Part shown: positions 9,515-41,440 of the stretch, piece after piece
Layout of the letters: each line of letters opens with the position of its first letter
Numbering within the stretch: the first letter of the stretch is position 1
NCBI RefSeq assembly: GCF_018070565.1
Contig: NZ_JAGPXL010000007.1
Coordinates: 1-64,000 of the forward strand
Direction: 5' to 3'
DNA from: Streptomyces sp. B93
Lineage (GTDB): Bacteria; Actinomycetota; Actinomycetes; Streptomycetales; Streptomycetaceae
Length of the DNA stretch: 64,000 bases
Notes under the pieces: model-generated
What the model was told of the DNA's origin: nothing
The model's input: the letters and a program-made list of their open reading frames with translations, nothing else
The model's database searches: none
Made by a program: the position numbers and the translations under genes

Positions 9515-10750
9515 ATGACAGCAGACATCGATTTCACGGCGTTCTTCGACGCCGCACCAAGCCCGTACCTGGTGCTGGACGCGGACCTGGTGATCCGCTA
9601 CGTCAACCCGGCGTGCCTGCGGACCGCGGGCCGGACCGAGGACGAGCTGATCGGGAAGTTCTTCTTCGACGCCCTGCCGGAGAACCCCGGCTGCCTCGAC
9701 AACGCGGAACGAAACCTCGAAGCCTCCCTGCGTCGGATGCTGGACACCGGGAATCCGGGAACCGCGGTGCTCCAGCGATACGACGTTCCCGCCGCCGATC
9801 AGCAGGACAAGCTGGAGGAGCGATGGTGGTCCGTGAGCCACACCCCCCTCTGCGGACCTGACGGCGCGGTGAGCTGGATCATCCAACAGGTCACGGACGT
9901 CACCGCCTTCGTCCACTCACGCCGGGCACGTCAGCTCAGCGAGGAGTCGGCCGAGCGAGCCGAGAGCCTGACGGCCGAGCTGTACGCGCGCGCCCGCGAG
10001 CTGCACCGGCTGAACCAGGAACTGCGCCAGGCCCACGCCCGCGAGCAGCAGATCGCCGTGGCCCTGCAAGAAGCCATGCTCTCCGTCCCCGACCTGGACC
10101 GGCACAGCAACATCGCCGTGCGTTACCTGCCCGCGACCGCGTCACTGAACGTGTGCGGCGACTGGTACGACGTCGTCGACCTGCCACCCGACCGCTACGC
10201 CGTGGCGGTCGGAGACGTCGTCGGTCACGGCCTGCACGCCGCGGCCATCATGGGCATGCTCCGCAGCGCCCTGAGCGCCGTCATCCGCGCCATTCCCAGC
10301 CCCGCCCAGGCCCTGGAAGTCCTCGGCCTCTACGCCCGCTCCGTGGACGGCGCCATGGCCGCGACCGCGGTCAAGGTACTCATCGACACGCGCAGCAGAC
10401 TGATCATCTACAGCAACGCCGGACATCCACCGCCGGTCCTGCTGCACCCCGACGGAACCTGCGACCTGCTGGACCAGGCCACCGACCCACCACTCGGCGC
10501 GCGCGAGCACCATGTCCCCCGCCCTCAGGCCGGGCTCTCCTACAACCGGGGCGACATCCTCGTGCTGTACACCGACGGCCTCATCGAGCGCCGCGGCGAG
10601 GACATCGACGTCGGCCTGGATCGCCTGACCACTGCCCTGGCCCAGGACCGAATCCTCGCCCCTGACCCGCTGGCCGACGCGCTGCTGACCCGGCTCGACG
10701 TCGCCGGGGGCGTCTCCGACGACATCGCTCTCGTCGTCATCCGCCTGTAG
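9515..10750 (+). CDS. PAS domain SpoIIE-type Ser/Thr phosphatase
   Basis: 411 aa: an N-terminal PAS domain (about 8-130; FFDAAPSPYLVLDADLVIRYVNPA), a helical or coiled-coil linker (about 140-190), and a PP2C/SpoIIE domain to the end. Metal-binding acids are present (VCGDWYDVV, AVGDVVGHG, YTDGLIERRG, SDDIALVVI). Such proteins dephosphorylate STAS anti-sigma antagonists and so control alternative sigma factors. ATG at 9515 has GGAG eight bases upstream; GTG at 9512 is an alternative. No STAS partner is adjacent; the nearest lies at 40.1 kb. The PAS ligand is unknown. Confidence 0.92.
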   Translation: MTADIDFTAFFDAAPSPYLVLDADLVIRYVNPACLRTAGRTEDELIGKFFFDALPENPGCLDNAERNLEASLRRMLDTGNPGTAVLQRYDVPAADQQDKLEERWWSVSHTPLCGPDGAVSWIIQQVTDVTAFVHSRRARQLSEESAERAESLTAELYARARELHRLNQELRQAHAREQQIAVALQEAMLSVPDLDRHSNIAVRYLPATASLNVCGDWYDVVDLPPDRYAVAVGDVVGHGLHAAAIMGMLRSALSAVIRAIPSPAQALEVLGLYARSVDGAMAATAVKVLIDTRSRLIIYSNAGHPPPVLLHPDGTCDLLDQATDPPLGAREHHVPRPQAGLSYNRGDILVLYTDGLIERRGEDIDVGLDRLTTALAQDRILAPDPLADALLTRLDVAGGVSDDIALVVIRL

Positions 10751-27464: not shown

Positions 27465-27923
27465 TCAGAGGGGCAGTGTGATCCAGATGCTCTTGCCCTG
27501 GCCGTCGGCGTCCGGCCGGACGACCGCGCTGCCGCCGAGGCCCAGGGTCAGCTCCATCACGGTGGCCAGACCGCCGGTCCCGCCGCCGTACGCGCCGTAC
27601 AGCGGGGGCCGGTAGGGGTGCCGGTCGTGCACGGCGAAGACCAGGGAGTCCGGCCCCGCGGCGTAGATCACGGTCAGCTGCGGGGAGCGGACGGCGGCGT
27701 GCCGGACGCTGTTGGTCACCAGCTCGCCGAGGATCAGCAGGGCGGGGTCCACGGTGGGGTGCCGCAGGCCGATCCCCCATTCCGTCAGCGCCTGCTCGGC
27801 GGTCTCGCGGGCCAGGCGCACGGCGCCCGGCATCGTCGGCAGGGTGAGGACGTGCCGGTAGGGCAGGGTCTCCCGGTGCCGCAGCGCCTCCGCCGTGCCG
27901 GGGGCGGGCGAGGGCTGGTTCAT
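27465..27923 (-). CDS. HATPase_c domain protein (anti-sigma kinase-like)
   Basis: 152 aa RsbW-like ATP-binding protein. The N-box is LILGELVTNSVRHA, and later GGTGGLATVMELT and GKSIWITLPL close the domain. Its ATG overlaps the stop of the SulP carrier (ATGA), so the two are translationally coupled. RsbW-like kinases act on STAS domains, and the coupled SulP protein has a C-terminal STAS domain; a functional contact is an attractive inference. The D-x-G motif is altered (FAVHDRHPYRP), so kinase activity is uncertain. Confidence 0.85.
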   Translation of the reverse strand: MNQPSPAPGTAEALRHRETLPYRHVLTLPTMPGAVRLARETAEQALTEWGIGLRHPTVDPALLILGELVTNSVRHAAVRSPQLTVIYAAGPDSLVFAVHDRHPYRPPLYGAYGGGTGGLATVMELTLGLGGSAVVRPDADGQGKSIWITLPL

Positions 27924-29677
27924 CGCACGGACTCCTCACTCGTTTCGGGAGACCCGGCGGGGTTCGGCAGCGCCCGCTGCTTGTGCCGGTCGGCAGCCGC
28001 GGGCAGTACGCCCGCCGACTCCAGGTGGTCGTGGGCGGCCCTGATCGCCTCCGGTGTGGTGGCGTGGTCCCGGTCCTCGGGCCGCAGCGCCTCCAGGGCT
28101 CCGACGGAGTCCAGGACCTGGCGCTGTCCGGGGCGGATCCCGGACACCAGGACGAGGATGCCGCGCCGCGTCAGCTTCTCCACGGCGTCCTTCAGGACCA
28201 GCGCGCCGGTGGCGTCCAGGGTCGACACCCGGGACATGCGCAGGATGACCACCCGTACATCGGCGACCTCGGTCAGCTCCAGCAGGAAGCGGTGCGCGGC
28301 GGCGAAGAACAGCGGGCCGTCGATGCGGTAGGCGACGATGTGCTCCGCGAGCAGGGCGTGCTCCTCGGCGCTGTGGTCACCGCGGTCGAGGGGGACCTCC
28401 TCGAGGCGGGCCTGCTTGGCCACGGCACGCAGGGCGAGGGCGCCCGCGACGGCCAGGCCGATGATCACCGCGTAGACGAGGTCCAGGGCCAGCGTCGCCG
28501 CCGCGGTGAGGGCGAGGATCACGGCGTCCGAGCGGGTGGCCCTCGCCATCGCGCGGAGCGAGCCGACCTCGACCATGCGGACGGCGGTGGCCAGCAGCAC
28601 ACCGGCGAGGGCGGCGAGCGGGATCTTCGACACCAGGGGGGCCGCGGCGAAGACGATCCCGGCGAGGATCGCGGCGTGGGTGAGGGCGGCCAGCCGGGAA
28701 CCGGCACCGGTACGCACGTTGACCGCCGTCCGGGCGATCGCGCCGGTCGCGGGCACGCCGCCGAACAGCGGGGCCGCGATGTTGGCCAGCCCCTGGCCGA
28801 ACAGTTCCCGGTCGGGGTCGTGGCGCTGCCCCACCGTCATCCCGTCCGCCACCGACGCGGACAGCAGGGACTCCAGGGCCGCGAGCGCCGCCACCGCCAC
28901 GGCCGGGGCCAGCAGGGTGCCGAGCGCACCGGGGTCCAGGAAGCCGAGCGAGGGAGGGGCCAGCCCGGACGGCAGGTCACCGATCGGCGTCGCCGCGTCC
29001 AGGCCCGCGACCTGGGCCACGACCGTGGCCGCGATCACCGCGAGGATGGAGAACGGCACGGCCGGCCGTCGGCGGGCCCCGATCAGCATGACCGCGGCCA
29101 CCGCCCCCGCGCACCCGAGAGCCGTCCAGTTCGGCTGCCGCGCGAACTCCTCGACGGCCCGCCAGGTGACGACGAGCACGCGGTCGCCCTCCGGCTTGTC
29201 CACCCCGAGGGCGTTCGGGATCTGCTGGAGGCCGATCACACAGGCGATGCCGAGGGTGAACCCCTCGACCACCGGGGCGGGCACGTACCGCATGTACTTT
29301 CCCGCCCTGAGCAGGGCCAGCGCGACGAGCATCACGCCCGCCATCAGCCCGACGGTCAGTACCGCGCCCGGCCCGTACTCGCCGACGATGGGTACCAGTA
29401 CGACGGCCATGGCGCCGGTGGGACCGGACACCTGGAGGTTGGACCCGCCGAACACGGCGGCCACCGCACCGGCGATCACGGCGGTGGCCAGGCCCGCCTC
29501 GGCGCCGAGCCCGGAGGACACGCCGAAACCGAGCGCCAGGGGCAGGGCCACGATCGCCACGGTCAGTCCGGCGAGCAGGTCCCGCCGGGGCGCGCGCCGC
29601 ATCTCCGCGAGGTCGGCGCGGCCGGGCAGAAGCGCCGTGAGCAGCGCCGCCGCCCGGCTGATCCCCGATGTCCTCAC
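27920..29677 (-). CDS. SulP-family anion transporter with STAS domain
   Basis: About 585 aa. An N-terminal membrane domain with around 12-14 helices includes the family segments AIVALPLALGFGVSSGLG and VFGGSNLQVSGPTGAMAVVL; a C-terminal STAS domain (about 425-540) contains RVSTLDATGALVLKDAVEKL. SulP proteins carry sulfate, bicarbonate or other anions. GTG at 29677 has GAGG eight bases upstream; the frame is open to 29704 with weaker signals. It heads the operon with HATPase, YjdM and ArsR. No carbonic anhydrase or sulfate assimilation gene is adjacent, so the ion is undecided. Confidence 0.9.
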   Translation of the reverse strand: MRTSGISRAAALLTALLPGRADLAEMRRAPRRDLLAGLTVAIVALPLALGFGVSSGLGAEAGLATAVIAGAVAAVFGGSNLQVSGPTGAMAVVLVPIVGEYGPGAVLTVGLMAGVMLVALALLRAGKYMRYVPAPVVEGFTLGIACVIGLQQIPNALGVDKPEGDRVLVVTWRAVEEFARQPNWTALGCAGAVAAVMLIGARRRPAVPFSILAVIAATVVAQVAGLDAATPIGDLPSGLAPPSLGFLDPGALGTLLAPAVAVAALAALESLLSASVADGMTVGQRHDPDRELFGQGLANIAAPLFGGVPATGAIARTAVNVRTGAGSRLAALTHAAILAGIVFAAAPLVSKIPLAALAGVLLATAVRMVEVGSLRAMARATRSDAVILALTAAATLALDLVYAVIIGLAVAGALALRAVAKQARLEEVPLDRGDHSAEEHALLAEHIVAYRIDGPLFFAAAHRFLLELTEVADVRVVILRMSRVSTLDATGALVLKDAVEKLTRRGILVLVSGIRPGQRQVLDSVGALEALRPEDRDHATTPEAIRAAHDHLESAGVLPAAADRHKQRALPNPAGSPETSEESVR

Positions 29678-29787
29678 GCGCCCGACCTCGACTTCCCTCA
29701 CCACACCCCGCCCGTCCGGGCGGACACGACCGCGCTGCGCCCGCGGCTACCGGTGGAGCGGGCGCAGCTCCCCCAGCATGTATGGAC

Positions 29788-37335: not shown

Positions 37336-39003
37336 ATGAGCGGCATGACGACTTTCGACGGCTCTTCGCCCGGCACCCGACGTCTGCCCCCGCACGTGGG
37401 CGCCGCGTGGCTGCGCGCGCCCTGTCCGGCCCTGGTCGCCGGTGCCGACGGGTCCGTGATGGAGGTCAACACGGCGGCCGACGCCCTGTTTCCCGACGCT
37501 CGGTGCGGGGCCCCGCTGGCCGGGACGGTGCCCGACTGGCTGGTGGACGCGCACCTGCGGGTGACCGGCGGCACCGGCGTCGGGGCCCCCGGCGCGCGCG
37601 GCCCGCACCGTGAGCTGACGCTGGAAGCCCACCCGACCGTGACGGAGAACGGGGACGTGGTGTGGTGGCTGGTCGACGACACCGACCGGCTGCTGGCAAA
37701 GGCGGCGCTGCGCCGTGAGCGGGAGCGCACCGCGTTCCTCGCCGATGCGTCCTCCCGGCTGCTGGCCTCGCTCAACACCAGGCGGTGCATGGAGGTCACC
37801 GTCGAACTGGCCGCCCAGCACCTGGCGGACGCGGCCGTCCTGGTGGCGCCGCGTACGGGCCGTCGCCACGCCCTCGCCCTCTGCGCCGCTCAGATGCCCG
37901 TGACGCACGCGACGGCACAGGTCGACGCCGACGCCGTACCGGGGCTGGCCGAGGCGTTGCAGGGCTTTCCGCCCGTGCCGTCCCGCTGGATCGATCCGGC
38001 CGCGCTGCCGCAGTGGGCCGTGCCCGATGCCTTCGAGCGCCCGGTGGGTTCGGTGGTGGTGACTCCGCTGCCGGGACACGGTGTTCCGGCCGGAGCGCTG
38101 ATCCTGTTGCGCCGCAGCGACCACGCCGCGTTCGACCCGTCCGAGGAGGTCTTCGCCCGCATCTTCTCCGCGCGCGCCGGGGCCGCCCTGTCGGCGGCTC
38201 GCCTCTACACGGAACAGGCCGGCATCACCGCGACCCTGATGGAGGAGTTGCTGCCGCCGACGCTACGTCAGGTGGACGGCGTGGAGTTCGCGGGCACCTA
38301 CCGGGCGTCGCGGGACACCGAGCGCGTCGGGGGCGACTTCTACGACGTCCACCCGATGTCCGGCCCGGACGGCGAGACCCTCGCCGTGCTGGGCGACGTC
38401 TGCGGGAAGGGCCTGGACGCGGCCGTACTGACGGGCAAGATCCGCAACACGCTCCAGGCGCTGCTGCCCATGGCCGACGACCACGCGAACATGCTGCGGC
38501 TGCTCAACGGCGCGCTGCTCAACGGGCGGCACACCCGCTTCGCCTCGCTGGTGCTGGTCTCGGTACGGCGTGAGGGGCACCTCACCCGGCTGCGGGTGAC
38601 CAGTGCGGGACATCCCAGACCGCTGATCGTGCGCAACACGGGCGTGGTGGAGGAGACGGCGACCTCGGGCACGATCGTCGGGGCGTTGCCCGACATCAAG
38701 GCGACCACCGTCGGCGTCGAACTCGCGCCGGGTGAGACCTGTCTGCTGTTCACCGACGGCATCACCGAGGCCAGGGGCGGCCCGCTGCGGAACGCCTTCT
38801 TCGGCGGGCGGCGGCTCGGCAGCGCCCTGGCCGAATGCGCCGGGATGCCCGCCGAGGCCGTCGTGGAGCACATCCGGATGCTCGCGAGCGAGTGGGTCGG
38901 CGACAACTCCCACGACGACATGGCCCTGATGGCCATCACCACACCCCGCAACACCCATCTGACAGCCGTGGACGGACACACTCCGGGCAGGTACACCGCG
39001 TGA
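37336..39003 (+). CDS. PAS-GAF-SpoIIE phosphatase, first gene of a partner-switching operon
   Basis: About 555 aa. An N-terminal PAS-like segment (about 25-100, PCPALVAGADGSVMEVNTAADALFP), a GAF domain (about 125-290), and a C-terminal PP2C/SpoIIE phosphatase (about 305-540) with GGDFYDV, LGDVCGKGLDAA, FTDGITEARGG and NSHDDMALM, so the metal site is complete. Such enzymes dephosphorylate STAS antagonists. ATG at 37336 is used; ATG at 37345 is possible and the ribosome site is weak. Its stop overlaps the GTG of the B12-binding gene (GTGA), and a STAS gene follows, so the substrate is probably that STAS protein. Confidence 0.92.
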   Translation: MSGMTTFDGSSPGTRRLPPHVGAAWLRAPCPALVAGADGSVMEVNTAADALFPDARCGAPLAGTVPDWLVDAHLRVTGGTGVGAPGARGPHRELTLEAHPTVTENGDVVWWLVDDTDRLLAKAALRRERERTAFLADASSRLLASLNTRRCMEVTVELAAQHLADAAVLVAPRTGRRHALALCAAQMPVTHATAQVDADAVPGLAEALQGFPPVPSRWIDPAALPQWAVPDAFERPVGSVVVTPLPGHGVPAGALILLRRSDHAAFDPSEEVFARIFSARAGAALSAARLYTEQAGITATLMEELLPPTLRQVDGVEFAGTYRASRDTERVGGDFYDVHPMSGPDGETLAVLGDVCGKGLDAAVLTGKIRNTLQALLPMADDHANMLRLLNGALLNGRHTRFASLVLVSVRREGHLTRLRVTSAGHPRPLIVRNTGVVEETATSGTIVGALPDIKATTVGVELAPGETCLLFTDGITEARGGPLRNAFFGGRRLGSALAECAGMPAEAVVEHIRMLASEWVGDNSHDDMALMAITTPRNTHLTAVDGHTPGRYTA

Positions 39004-40133
39004 CACGCACCCCTTCCCCCGCCGCCCCCTCTCCCGCCTCCGACTATGACGTGGGCGCGGTGCTGGCCCGTGCCCGGGAGGAGCTGTGGCGGGCGGTCCT
39101 CGAACGCGACGACTACGCGGCGGGCCGGGTCGTCGACGCCGCGCTGGCGGCCGGTGCGAGCGGTGAGCAAGTCCTGCTGGAGGTCATCGCCCGGGTGCAG
39201 GGCAAGGTCGGTGCCGCGTGGGCGGCGGGCCGTATGACGGTGGCTCAGGAGCACGCGGCCACCGCCATCCACGAACGCGTCATCGCGGCCACGGTCCACC
39301 ACCCTTCGGCCAGGCAGGCAGTGACGCCGGGAGCGGCGGGCACGGTGACCGTCGCCTGCGTGGACGGTGAGTGGCACGCGCTGCCCGCCCGGATCCTCGC
39401 CGAGGTGCTGCGGCTGCGCGGTCACCGGGTCGACTTCCTCGGGGCCCAGGTCCCCACTCCGCACCTGATCGCCCATCTGCACCAGACGGCGCCGGACACG
39501 GTCGCCCTGTCCTCCACGCTGCCCACCCGGCTGCCCACGGCACACACCGCGATCACGGCGATCCAGGCGATCGGCATCCCCGTGCTCGTCGGCGGTGCCG
39601 CGTTCGGCGCGGACGGGCACCGGGCCCGGTTGCTGGGCGCCGACGCCTGGGCTCCCGACGCCCGCGCGGCGGCGGACCTGCTGGCCGGTGGCATGCCCCG
39701 GCCCGGTCCCGGCAACGCCCGGCAGGCCATCGACGACCTGCCCCATCTGGGCGACCAGGAGTACACGATGGTCTCCCGGAGCAGGGGGCAGCTGGTGAAG
39801 AACACCCTCGCCGGACTGGAGCGACGGCTGCCCGCCATGCGTTCCTACACCGACGCGCAGCACGAGCGCACGGCCGAGGACGTGGCACACGTCGTCGACT
39901 TCCTCCGCGCGGCCCTCTACACCGACGACGTCGGCCTGTTCACCGGTTTCCTGGACTGGACCGGCGACATCCTGGAGGCACGCGGGGTGTCCGCCCGCGT
40001 CCTCGACCCGGCCCTCACCCTGCTGCGGGAGGAACTCAAGGACTTCCCCCGCGCCGTCACCCTGCTCACCGAGGGGAGCGGCGTCCTGCGCGGACGCGCC
40101 ACTCCTCCCACGACGCCCGGTACGAAGTCATGA
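39000..40133 (+). CDS. Cobalamin-binding sensor protein with CarH-type light-sensing motif
   Basis: 377 aa. The N-terminal helical cap (about 15-105) carries W74, E84 and H85 in W-x9-EH spacing, the same spacing as W131-E141-H142 in the adenosylcobalamin photoreceptor CarH. The Rossmann B12-binding domain (about 110-230) has GEWHALP, where H126 is the probable lower ligand. A further helical domain (about 250-375, ERTAEDVAHVVDFLRAALYTDDVGLFTGFLDWTGDILEARG) has no MerR HTH; by eye it recalls helical sensor domains of RsbR-type proteins. Both ends overlap neighbours (GTGA and ATGA). It probably senses light or cobalamin and passes the signal to the phosphatase or STAS protein by contact. Confidence 0.88.
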   Translation: MTRTPSPAAPSPASDYDVGAVLARAREELWRAVLERDDYAAGRVVDAALAAGASGEQVLLEVIARVQGKVGAAWAAGRMTVAQEHAATAIHERVIAATVHHPSARQAVTPGAAGTVTVACVDGEWHALPARILAEVLRLRGHRVDFLGAQVPTPHLIAHLHQTAPDTVALSSTLPTRLPTAHTAITAIQAIGIPVLVGGAAFGADGHRARLLGADAWAPDARAAADLLAGGMPRPGPGNARQAIDDLPHLGDQEYTMVSRSRGQLVKNTLAGLERRLPAMRSYTDAQHERTAEDVAHVVDFLRAALYTDDVGLFTGFLDWTGDILEARGVSARVLDPALTLLREELKDFPRAVTLLTEGSGVLRGRATPPTTPGTKS

Positions 40134-40498
40134 CACTCCAGCTGCCCGACGGCTTCCGCCTCAAGACGGTCCCGACCGAGGCCGGTGACCTGTGCGTCCG
40201 CGTCATCGGCGACCTGGACTGGGACACCGCGGACGAACTGACCAAGGTGGCACGGGGACACCTGGAGTCCGGCACCCCCTCGCGCGCGCTGCGGCTGGAC
40301 TTCACGGACCTGGCGACCTGCGACTCCACCGGCCTGGCCGCCCTCCTCATGATCCACCGGTGCGCGGTCGCCACCGGCCGACGGCTGTACCTGGACCACA
40401 TGCCGGACCGTCTCGTACGCCTGCTGGAGCTGACCGGAACGCTGGCCCACCTCACCGGCGCGGAGGAGGGCGCGGGGCGCGGGACCGAGGAACGTTAG
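40130..40498 (+). CDS. STAS-domain anti-sigma factor antagonist
   Basis: 122 aa single STAS domain, RsbV/SpoIIAA-like. The phospho-acceptor region LATCDSTGLAALLMIH has the conserved Ser after Asp. In partner switching, the unphosphorylated form binds an anti-sigma kinase and frees a sigma factor. ATG at 40130 overlaps the B12 gene's stop (ATGA). No kinase or sigma gene is in this operon; the target kinase must be elsewhere. Confidence 0.93.
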   Translation: MTLQLPDGFRLKTVPTEAGDLCVRVIGDLDWDTADELTKVARGHLESGTPSRALRLDFTDLATCDSTGLAALLMIHRCAVATGRRLYLDHMPDRLVRLLELTGTLAHLTGAEEGAGRGTEER

Positions 40499-40597: not shown

Positions 40598-41440
40598 GTG
40601 AACTCATCGACCATGTTGCTCCCCCGCGGACGGTCCGGGGCACGTAAGGCGGCCGACAGTCAGGTCGTCGAGGCGGCGGCGCGCTGGGGACTCGCCGCTC
40701 GTGGCGTCATCTACGTCCTGGTCGGCGTCATCGCCCTGCGGATCGCCCTCGACGGCTCCCGGGAACAGGCGGACCGAGGGGGTGCGCTGGCAGAGCTGTC
40801 CGAGCGCCCCTTCGGGTCGCTGCTGTTGTGGGCCGTCGGGGTCGGCCTGGCGGGCATGGCGCTCTGGCGGCTGAGCGAGGCCCTGTTCGGGGCGTCCGGG
40901 CCGGACGGGCACAAGACCGGCAAGCGGCTGCTGTCGGGGGCCCGCGCCCTGTTCTACGGCTTCATCGCGATCTCCGTGCTGGCCATGGCCAGCGGCTCCT
41001 CGTCGTCGGACGGCGGCTCCAGCGACCGGCAGTCCCGGGACGTGACCGCCCGGGCCCTGGAGATGCCCGCGGGCCGCTGGCTCGTCGGCGCGGCGGGCGT
41101 GGTGGCCGTCGGCGCGGGGCTGTGGATGGCGGGCCGGGCGGTCACCCGCCGCTACCGCAAGCACCTGCGCAGCGGGCAGACGCCCCGCTGGGCGCGGCGG
41201 TTCACGGACGTGTGCGGGGTCGGCGGGGGCGTGGCGAGGGGCATGGTGTTCGCCGCCGCCGGTGTCTTCCTCGTCCGGGCCGCGACCGAGGCGCGGCCGG
41301 GCGAGGCGAAGGGCTTCGACGACACGCTGCGCTCGTTCGCCACCACGCCCGCCGGGCCGTGGCTGCTGGTGGCGGTGGCCGTTGGTCTCGTGCTGTTCGG
41401 TCTGTTCTCCTTCGCCATGGCGCGCTGGCGCCGGGTGTGA
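40598..41440 (+). CDS. DUF1206-family membrane protein
   Basis: 280 aa with three repeats of a two-helix unit (about 70 residues each), the DUF1206 layout: WGLAARGVIYVLVGVIALRIAL, then LSGARALFYGFIAISVLAMA, then GGGVARGMVFAAAGVFLVRA. Each repeat starts with a G-x-ARG or similar and ends in W-x-LxAVAxGLxxFG. GTG at 40598 has GGAGG six bases upstream. The family has no established function. Spacing of about 100 bases suggests it is not part of the STAS operon. Confidence 0.9.
   Translation: MNSSTMLLPRGRSGARKAADSQVVEAAARWGLAARGVIYVLVGVIALRIALDGSREQADRGGALAELSERPFGSLLLWAVGVGLAGMALWRLSEALFGASGPDGHKTGKRLLSGARALFYGFIAISVLAMASGSSSSDGGSSDRQSRDVTARALEMPAGRWLVGAAGVVAVGAGLWMAGRAVTRRYRKHLRSGQTPRWARRFTDVCGVGGGVARGMVFAAAGVFLVRAATEARPGEAKGFDDTLRSFATTPAGPWLLVAVAVGLVLFGLFSFAMARWRRV

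Follow-up and report, generated by a model that had tools for sequence, protein, structure and literature searches.

Light- or globin-type sensors feed partner switching in the LOV-STAS protein YtvA and in the RsbR stressosome, where sensor and STAS domain share one chain and the chromophore is flavin or none. Photocobilins, by their domains, join a cobalamin-binding module to a photoglobin. The photocobilin of Saccharothrix syringae, SasPcob, shows adenosylcobalamin (AdoCbl)/biliverdin photochemistry and, depending on light, controls an enzyme in trans; a STRING network names STAS, SpoIIE and PP2C-like proteins as its potential partners, and the standalone members of its family have a function called 'less clear' (PMC10979010, from the part of the article available). 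Here we analyze a three-gene operon (37336 to 40498, + strand) in a 64,000-nucleotide stretch of Streptomyces sp. B93 (contig NZ_JAGPXL010000007.1, positions 1 to 64,000), the whole of which we refer to as the window. Its middle gene encodes a new member of the photocobilin family, and we class the operon as a partner switch driven by a photocobilin, by a mechanism that we infer.

A preliminary description of this DNA had reported knowing of no described system of this form. That view has to be given up: the sensor falls in a published family (PDB 8J2W), and SpoIIE and STAS partners were already suggested in the available part of PMC10979010. What is new here is a near-constant pairing of the photocobilin with a SpoIIE phosphatase and a repeated link to SigB-type, kinase, carotenoid and LitR genes in relatives. 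Our literature search saw no report linking photocobilins to carotenoid genes or to action on a SpoIIE phosphatase, nor one that describes this pairing or the repeated link. The photoglobin study of Schneider et al. 2022 reportedly includes gene-neighbourhood work, mentioned in its abstract, and may hold part of the present findings.

Gene B and the photocobilin family

The operon comprises three genes, here called A, B and C, joined by four-base overlaps (GTGA between A and B, ATGA between B and C), an arrangement and set of coordinates on which our analysis and the preliminary description agree. Gene B (39000..40133, 377 aa, GTG start) contains a cobalamin-binding module (39075..39671) made of a helical cap at residues 26-96 and a Rossmann domain at residues 115-224, with Pfam matches to B12-binding_2 (6.3e-12) and B12-binding (3.2e-19; PF02607 and PF02310). 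Across residues 21-360 it matches SasPcob (8J2X/8J2W) with E=1e-76 and 48% identity (329 columns), followed by AbPcob (8J2Y, 7e-35) and, much more weakly, by CarH chains (2e-7 at best). The AlphaFold2 (AF2) model of B has a predicted local distance difference test (pLDDT) score of 90.2 and a predicted template modelling score (pTM) of 0.86, and its first-ranked Foldseek match is again 8J2W, with a template modelling score of 0.93 by target length and 0.82 by query length at a root-mean-square deviation of 2.8. In this model the C-terminal helices span approximately residues 239-364 (39714..40091) and form a globin-like domain predicted to pack onto the cobalamin domain. By its modeled structure this part of B is a photoglobin, the known bilin-binding globin fold; the preliminary description had recognized the helical domain and had missed the second chromophore, biliverdin, that goes with it.

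The residues that contact the chromophores are retained. In the available part of PMC10979010, the contacts of SasPcob are W61, E71, H72, H108, H137, D270 and W296, which align to W74, E84, H85, H126, H155, D294 and W320 of B. W74 (39219-39221) and E84-H85 (39249-39254) line the predicted adenosyl pocket and make up the CarH-type W-x9-EH signature (39219..39254), H126 (39375..39377) is the predicted lower cobalt ligand, and H155 (39462-39464), which lies inside the Rossmann domain, D294 (39879-39881) and W320 (39957-39959) are candidate bilin contacts. The first four of these had been picked out correctly from the sequence. Each of the seven is identical in all 109 further rows of our alignment (80 named loci, defined below, plus 29 from a same-genus sample, a few rows being one gene fetched twice); loss of the W-x9-EH residues from orthologues, which the preliminary description had named as a possible objection, was thus seen in none. 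At the bilin contacts AbPcob differs at two of three positions, with Ala for H137 and His for D270. Because Cys is absent from the stretch 291-294 (T-A-E-D), B, like SasPcob, is unlikely to attach its bilin covalently. B also contains all elements of the SignatureFinder signature, GxxW, EH, GxxH and GxxxP, as given in the available part of PMC11796333.

A Pfam scan found no helix-turn-helix family match in B, as had been expected, and the CarH model aligns to B only from model position 85 on. Lacking a DNA-binding domain, B must exert its output via protein contact. We considered whether B is a CarH/LitR regulator that has lost its helix-turn-helix and rejected this, as the top sequence and fold matches are photocobilins. 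On sequence, predicted fold and contact residues, then, B is a photocobilin, which upholds and sharpens its original reading as a cobalamin-binding protein. By analogy with SasPcob, it would bind AdoCbl and biliverdin and respond to green and red light. Heme oxygenase is the usual source of biliverdin, and the 8.0 Mb genome that holds the window (G000, with the window on contig C102) has a gene for it; this says little, because 138 of 150 same-genus genomes have one as well.

A near-constant phosphatase partner

Gene A (37336..39003, + strand) encodes a serine phosphatase of 555 aa, read as PAS-GAF-SpoIIE (PPM/PP2C-type). The three domain names, assigned in the preliminary description, differ in their support. 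The SpoIIE domain (residues 344-536, 38365..38943) is a clear Pfam match (E=1.4e-40). The GAF match falls under the Pfam cut-off in A itself (E=0.056) and appears in 28 of 41 aligned family members. No PAS match is found by Pfam in the window's A, and PAS families appear in few members (PAS_4 in 5, PAS in 3, PAS_8 in 1), so that PAS stands by inference from these and from the AF2 model (pLDDT 85.6, pTM 0.53). That model suggests a PAS-like domain at 22-115, a coiled helix at 116-144, a GAF-like domain at 148-260, a long helix at 268-304 and the SpoIIE domain at 316-535, the PAS-like and GAF-like labels being read off predicted secondary structure. Foldseek places the model near RssB, the RsbU domain of Rv1364c, a Sphaerobacter phosphatase, SiaA and SpoIIE. 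Among the metal-binding Asp residues, D334, D354, D474, D527 and D528 are kept in 41/41 aligned members and D337 in 39/41; Pfam, Foldseek and alignment thus show the PPM fold and the retained metal-binding Asp of a SpoIIE/RsbU-type phosphatase.

Gene C (40130..40498, + strand, 122 aa) encodes an anti-sigma-factor-antagonist-like protein matching Pfam STAS_2 (1.1e-14), as first proposed. Its predicted phospho-acceptor is Ser66 (40325-40327); counting the window's own C, 89 of 93 aligned STAS sequences have Ser at this position. A STAS domain with a predicted phosphorylatable Ser is what is expected of an anti-anti-sigma factor.

To follow the unit across genomes we used the best 80 of 259 loci, those most similar to B, as named loci (Streptomyces, Mycobacterium, Mycolicibacterium, Nonomuraea, Pseudonocardia, Saccharothrix, Amycolatopsis, Actinomadura and others) and 30 loci from a same-genus sample, both of which favor close relatives. 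A adjoins B in 78 of the named loci, C does in 67, and all three are adjacent in 66, more than chance would give and contrary to the separation of the genes that had been named as a second possible objection. The two named loci without an adjacent A by our rule (L086 and L111) still have A-like sequence in upstream frames. In the same-genus loci, A adjoins B in 30, C in 27 and both in 27.

A broader sample of 150 same-genus genomes gives a similar picture. B (cut-off E<=1e-20) occurs in 57 of them at 65 places, a count in which a split gene of G010 appears twice, once for each half, and a close A homologue (E<=1e-80) occurs in 50 genomes at 58 places. Adjacency is largely mutual: 54 of the 58 close-A places adjoin B, with four lacking an adjacent B, and 54 of the 65 B places adjoin a close A. 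Of the 11 B places left over, nine carry SpoIIE sequence upstream, their B being 38-56% identical to that of the window; the tenth holds the remaining half of the B gene split in G010, where A lies upstream; and the last, a degraded extra copy (G016:C37), is the sole place with none. SpoIIE sequence, whole, in pieces or broken (as in G057, G101 and G064), thus lies upstream at 64 of 65 B places.

In a phylum-wide sample of 396 genomes, a B relative (E<=1e-25) was found in 21. One of 47% identity (L157) keeps A-B-C, and among 16 loci with B below 45% identity, whose flanks are short, a SpoIIE neighbor appears in two (L161 and L173, both 36%). From these sequences the A-B pairing looks like a trait of one photocobilin branch. 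Within it the near-constant unit is phosphatase plus photocobilin, the STAS gene being less constant, which makes A a better candidate than C for the direct target of B. The preliminary description had foreseen action through the partner-switching module; its wording would allow the STAS protein as direct partner, which conservation disfavors.

Several copies of the pair appear broken or remnant (L178 in G064, L184 in G010, L183 at G016:C37, and L054), in that A is fragmented, a frameshift divides B, or what is left of B is a fragment next to its STAS gene; some strains seem to be losing the module. An apparent A-B fusion at L054 was set aside, as the A matches sit in two reading frames and the arrangement looks like a frameshift. 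Four Streptomyces records that are filed as plasmids (NZ_CP054927.1, NZ_CP071045.1, NZ_CP116356.1 and NZ_CP023408.1) carry the pair as well, annotated there only as PP2C or SpoIIE family phosphatase and cobalamin-dependent protein.

Kinase, sigma factor, carotenoid and LitR genes near the operon

We counted neighbors of the 80 named loci within approximately 6 kb, where the contig allows, with Pfam checks on examples. An RsbW-like kinase gene was found at 33 loci, carotenoid genes at 16, a CbiZ gene at 9 and a SigB-type sigma factor gene at 4. Nearly complete rows occur in some relatives: sigma, kinase, A, B, C (L060/L129); A, B, C, kinase, one further gene, sigma (L095); and A, B, C, sigma, with a carotenoid cluster approximately 32 kb off (G059). 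In S. griseus NCTC13033 (L102/L127), the operon is preceded by a kinase-like gene and another SpoIIE gene, and A, B and C are followed by a MarR gene, then by a SigB-type gene in the opposite orientation, and then by crtY, crtT, crtU and more crt genes. Lee et al. 2001 reportedly described, to judge by the title, a SigB-like factor for the S. griseus carotenoid cluster; by its position, the SigB-type gene beside the NCTC13033 operon is presumably that factor.

Of the 150 same-genus genomes, 73 have lycopene cyclase, 57 have photocobilin and 41 have both (Fisher p=1.0e-5, kinship ignored). The two lie within 12 kb on the same contig in 7 of the 41, with a chance expectation within 10 kb of about 0.1 if genomes were independent. 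As a positive control, LitR lies within 12 kb of the cyclase in 14/47; as a negative control, heme oxygenase does so in 0/64. LitR itself is present in 40 of 57 photocobilin genomes versus 34 of 93 others (p=9.4e-5, kinship ignored), an association found among cyclase-positive genomes (p=0.0015) and not among cyclase-negative ones (p=0.56). In 4 of the 40 genomes with both, LitR lies within 12 kb of the photocobilin (G061, G071, G095 and G134).

The carotenoid-neighbor label was also mapped on a tree built from 113 B rows, of which 108 are different, 112 are labelled and 23 have this label; many of its inner branches are weakly supported. The label requires five changes there, at least two of them forced by starred branches; a smaller tree of the named loci requires three. 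The order of the crt genes also varies among lineages.

Other recurrent neighbors deserve mention. In one carotenoid-adjacent lineage, the operon is preceded by a gene for CbiZ (adenosylcobinamide amidohydrolase, cobamide salvage) and by one for an RsbW-like kinase (CbiZ loci L049, L054, L055, L063, L079, L087, L093, L096 and L103, Pfam-checked in L049); CbiZ is possibly a dedicated cobamide supply for the B-type sensor. A MarR-family gene is a recurrent neighbor of the operon or of a second SpoIIE gene (L127:15146-15571, and MarR-like genes in 11 of the 80 loci). CrtR is a MarR-type carotenoid regulator of Corynebacterium, to which the recurrent gene may be related. In L189 (G071) and L191 (G134), LitR stands beside DUF1295 and CMAS genes approximately 11 kb from the photocobilin operon, with FAD (flavin adenine dinucleotide)-oxidase genes as well in L191, a possible light-response island for membrane lipids. 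The window's genome has two LitR-like MerR-B12 proteins (G000:C95:7285-8205 and G000:C2:50177-51076). Within the window are a second PAS-SpoIIE phosphatase gene, remotely similar to A (9572-10750), a SulP-type sulfate permease with a C-terminal STAS domain (27920-29704) and, directly 3′ of the operon on the same strand, a DUF1206 protein gene (40613-41440). An upstream promoter pattern of the extracytoplasmic function type was sought before A and matched in 24/78 and 36/78, with a shuffle mean of 28.7, and so gave no lead.

A proposed light-operated partner switch

We consider it probable that the operon is a partner switch operated by green and red light, with carotenogenesis among its targets in some species. 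In the dark, a dimer of B would hold adenosylcobalamin and probably biliverdin too. Green light, or red light by way of biliverdin, would break the Co-C bond and change the shape and dimer state of B, which would then contact A and alter its phosphatase activity. A would take the phosphate off Ser66 of C, and dephosphorylated C would bind an RsbW-type kinase, freeing a SigB/F-type sigma factor, with carotenoid synthesis expected among the targets in several lineages. The contact between A and B and the control of A by B are presumed, and so is the sigma factor freed in the window's strain. That light activates A would be the simplest guess. When SasPcob carried both chromophores, it was the light state that activated a cyclase in trans (available part of PMC10979010). 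The route originally envisaged, from B12 light sensing through protein contact and a partner switch to a sigma factor, is consistent with this scheme.

The residues conserved in B could also serve plain cobalamin sensing, and the nine CbiZ genes adjoining the operon, all in one clade, would fit a B that is no photoreceptor but a cofactor or redox sensor, setting the phosphatase according to the availability of AdoCbl or biliverdin or in response to an oxidative attack that strikes the Co-C bond. We judge this unlikely, given that light-signature residues and bilin contacts are invariant across the B rows, that the homologue SasPcob responds to light (PMC10979010, available part) and that the operon lies near LitR or carotenoid genes in some relatives. 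A rearranged circuit deserves equally little credence, in which B binds C or the kinase directly and A forms an independent branch with its own PAS/GAF signal. Overlap of all three genes in the window and the four close A homologues without an adjacent B speak for it. RsbR has its globin domain in one chain with a STAS domain. Photoglobins are related to that globin (PMC10151467, from the part available), which points the same way. Against it, no C was found next to B at 13 of the 80 loci or at any of the nine divergent pairs, and SpoIIE sequence is almost always upstream. Finally, the scarcity of SigB-type genes within approximately 6 kb and the absence of linked relevant genes in the window's genome would be expected if the output were not a sigma factor (for example, another STAS-regulated protein) and the carotenoid neighborhood an accidental clustering of accessory genes. 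The rows of sigma, kinase, phosphatase, photocobilin and STAS genes in L060/L129 and L095, the seven cyclase-linked genomes against none for the control gene and the repeated changes on the tree make this very improbable.

A number of observations weigh against a light-operated switch that controls carotenoid genes through a sigma factor, or against parts of that reading. In 64 of the 80 operons there is no carotenoid gene within approximately 6 kb, a SigB-type gene is that near in merely 4, and in 34 of the 41 genomes with both photocobilin and cyclase the two are more than 12 kb apart or on different contigs. A single-sequence phmmer search with three kinase and three sigma references found no kinase or sigma gene in the window, leaving the set incomplete there. 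The genome of the window has its crt cluster on C83 and its LitR-like genes on C95 and C2, none of them on C102; eight SigB/F/G factors above cut-off are all on other contigs. A SigB-type promoter pattern upstream of A matched in 6/78 forward and 8/78 reverse (shuffle mean approximately 1) and supports nothing, because it is not strand-specific. Heme oxygenase is not associated with photocobilin (53/57 genomes with versus 85/93 without). C was not found adjoining B in the 13 named loci mentioned above, which include 7 of the 9 in the CbiZ-bearing, crt-adjacent clade, nor, by a reference-based search, directly downstream of B at the nine divergent places. The acceptor Ser is replaced in 4 of 93 STAS proteins (2 Ala, 2 Pro). 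As to the direction of the effect, SasPcob without biliverdin activated the cyclase in its dark state (PMC10979010, available part).

Two further leads came from the literature. The identification of the operon with SCO7325-SCO7327 of S. coelicolor was set aside, SCO7327 being described as OsaD or a hybrid kinase in the available parts of two papers; literature on SCO7325 and SigB was not used as evidence. The portion available of a light-transcriptome paper on Mycobacterium kansasii contained no mention of cobalamin or a photoreceptor.

With a phosphatase partner and SigB-type, RsbW-like, carotenoid and LitR neighbors, standalone photocobilins gain a testable job, light-dependent control of sigma factors by partner switching. 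A wider proposal could, in our judgement, go either way: that Actinobacteria possess, beside LitR/CarH, a second B12 light pathway independent of DNA binding, in which a two-chromophore photocobilin would act through a dedicated SpoIIE phosphatase on a SigB-type sigma factor and control carotenoid synthesis in several Streptomyces lineages, including S. griseus, and that this is the physiological role of the present standalone branch. If true, B12 photobiology, so far a matter of DNA-binding regulators and enzyme fusions, would be joined to bacterial general stress signalling, and light would be a possible cue for cryptic Streptomyces carotenoid clusters.

Among known systems, the photocobilins (SasPcob, 8J2W/8J2X; AbPcob or AbDPcob, 8J2Y) have in common with B the order helical cap, Rossmann domain, photoglobin. 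SasPcob and B share the same cobalamin and bilin contact residues, although SasPcob is at most approximately 50% identical to any of the 109 further B rows; what the loci described here show beyond it is a natural setting and a near-constant pairing with a SpoIIE phosphatase. AbPcob, unlike B, is a cyclase fusion with His at the bilin-contact Asp position. CarH and LitR resemble B in a cobalamin domain with W-EH and a lower-ligand His, and carotenoid genes adjoin some of them, but they carry a MerR-type DNA-binding domain that B lacks. The operon shares with RsbU/RsbP-RsbV-RsbW-SigB a SpoIIE phosphatase and a STAS antagonist with retained catalytic and acceptor residues, and kinase and sigma genes near the operon in some relatives; it differs in its photocobilin input and in that our search found neither a kinase nor a sigma gene in the window. 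In the S. griseus record NCTC13033, the operon adjoins both a SigB-type gene and crtY-T-U of the carotenoid cluster.

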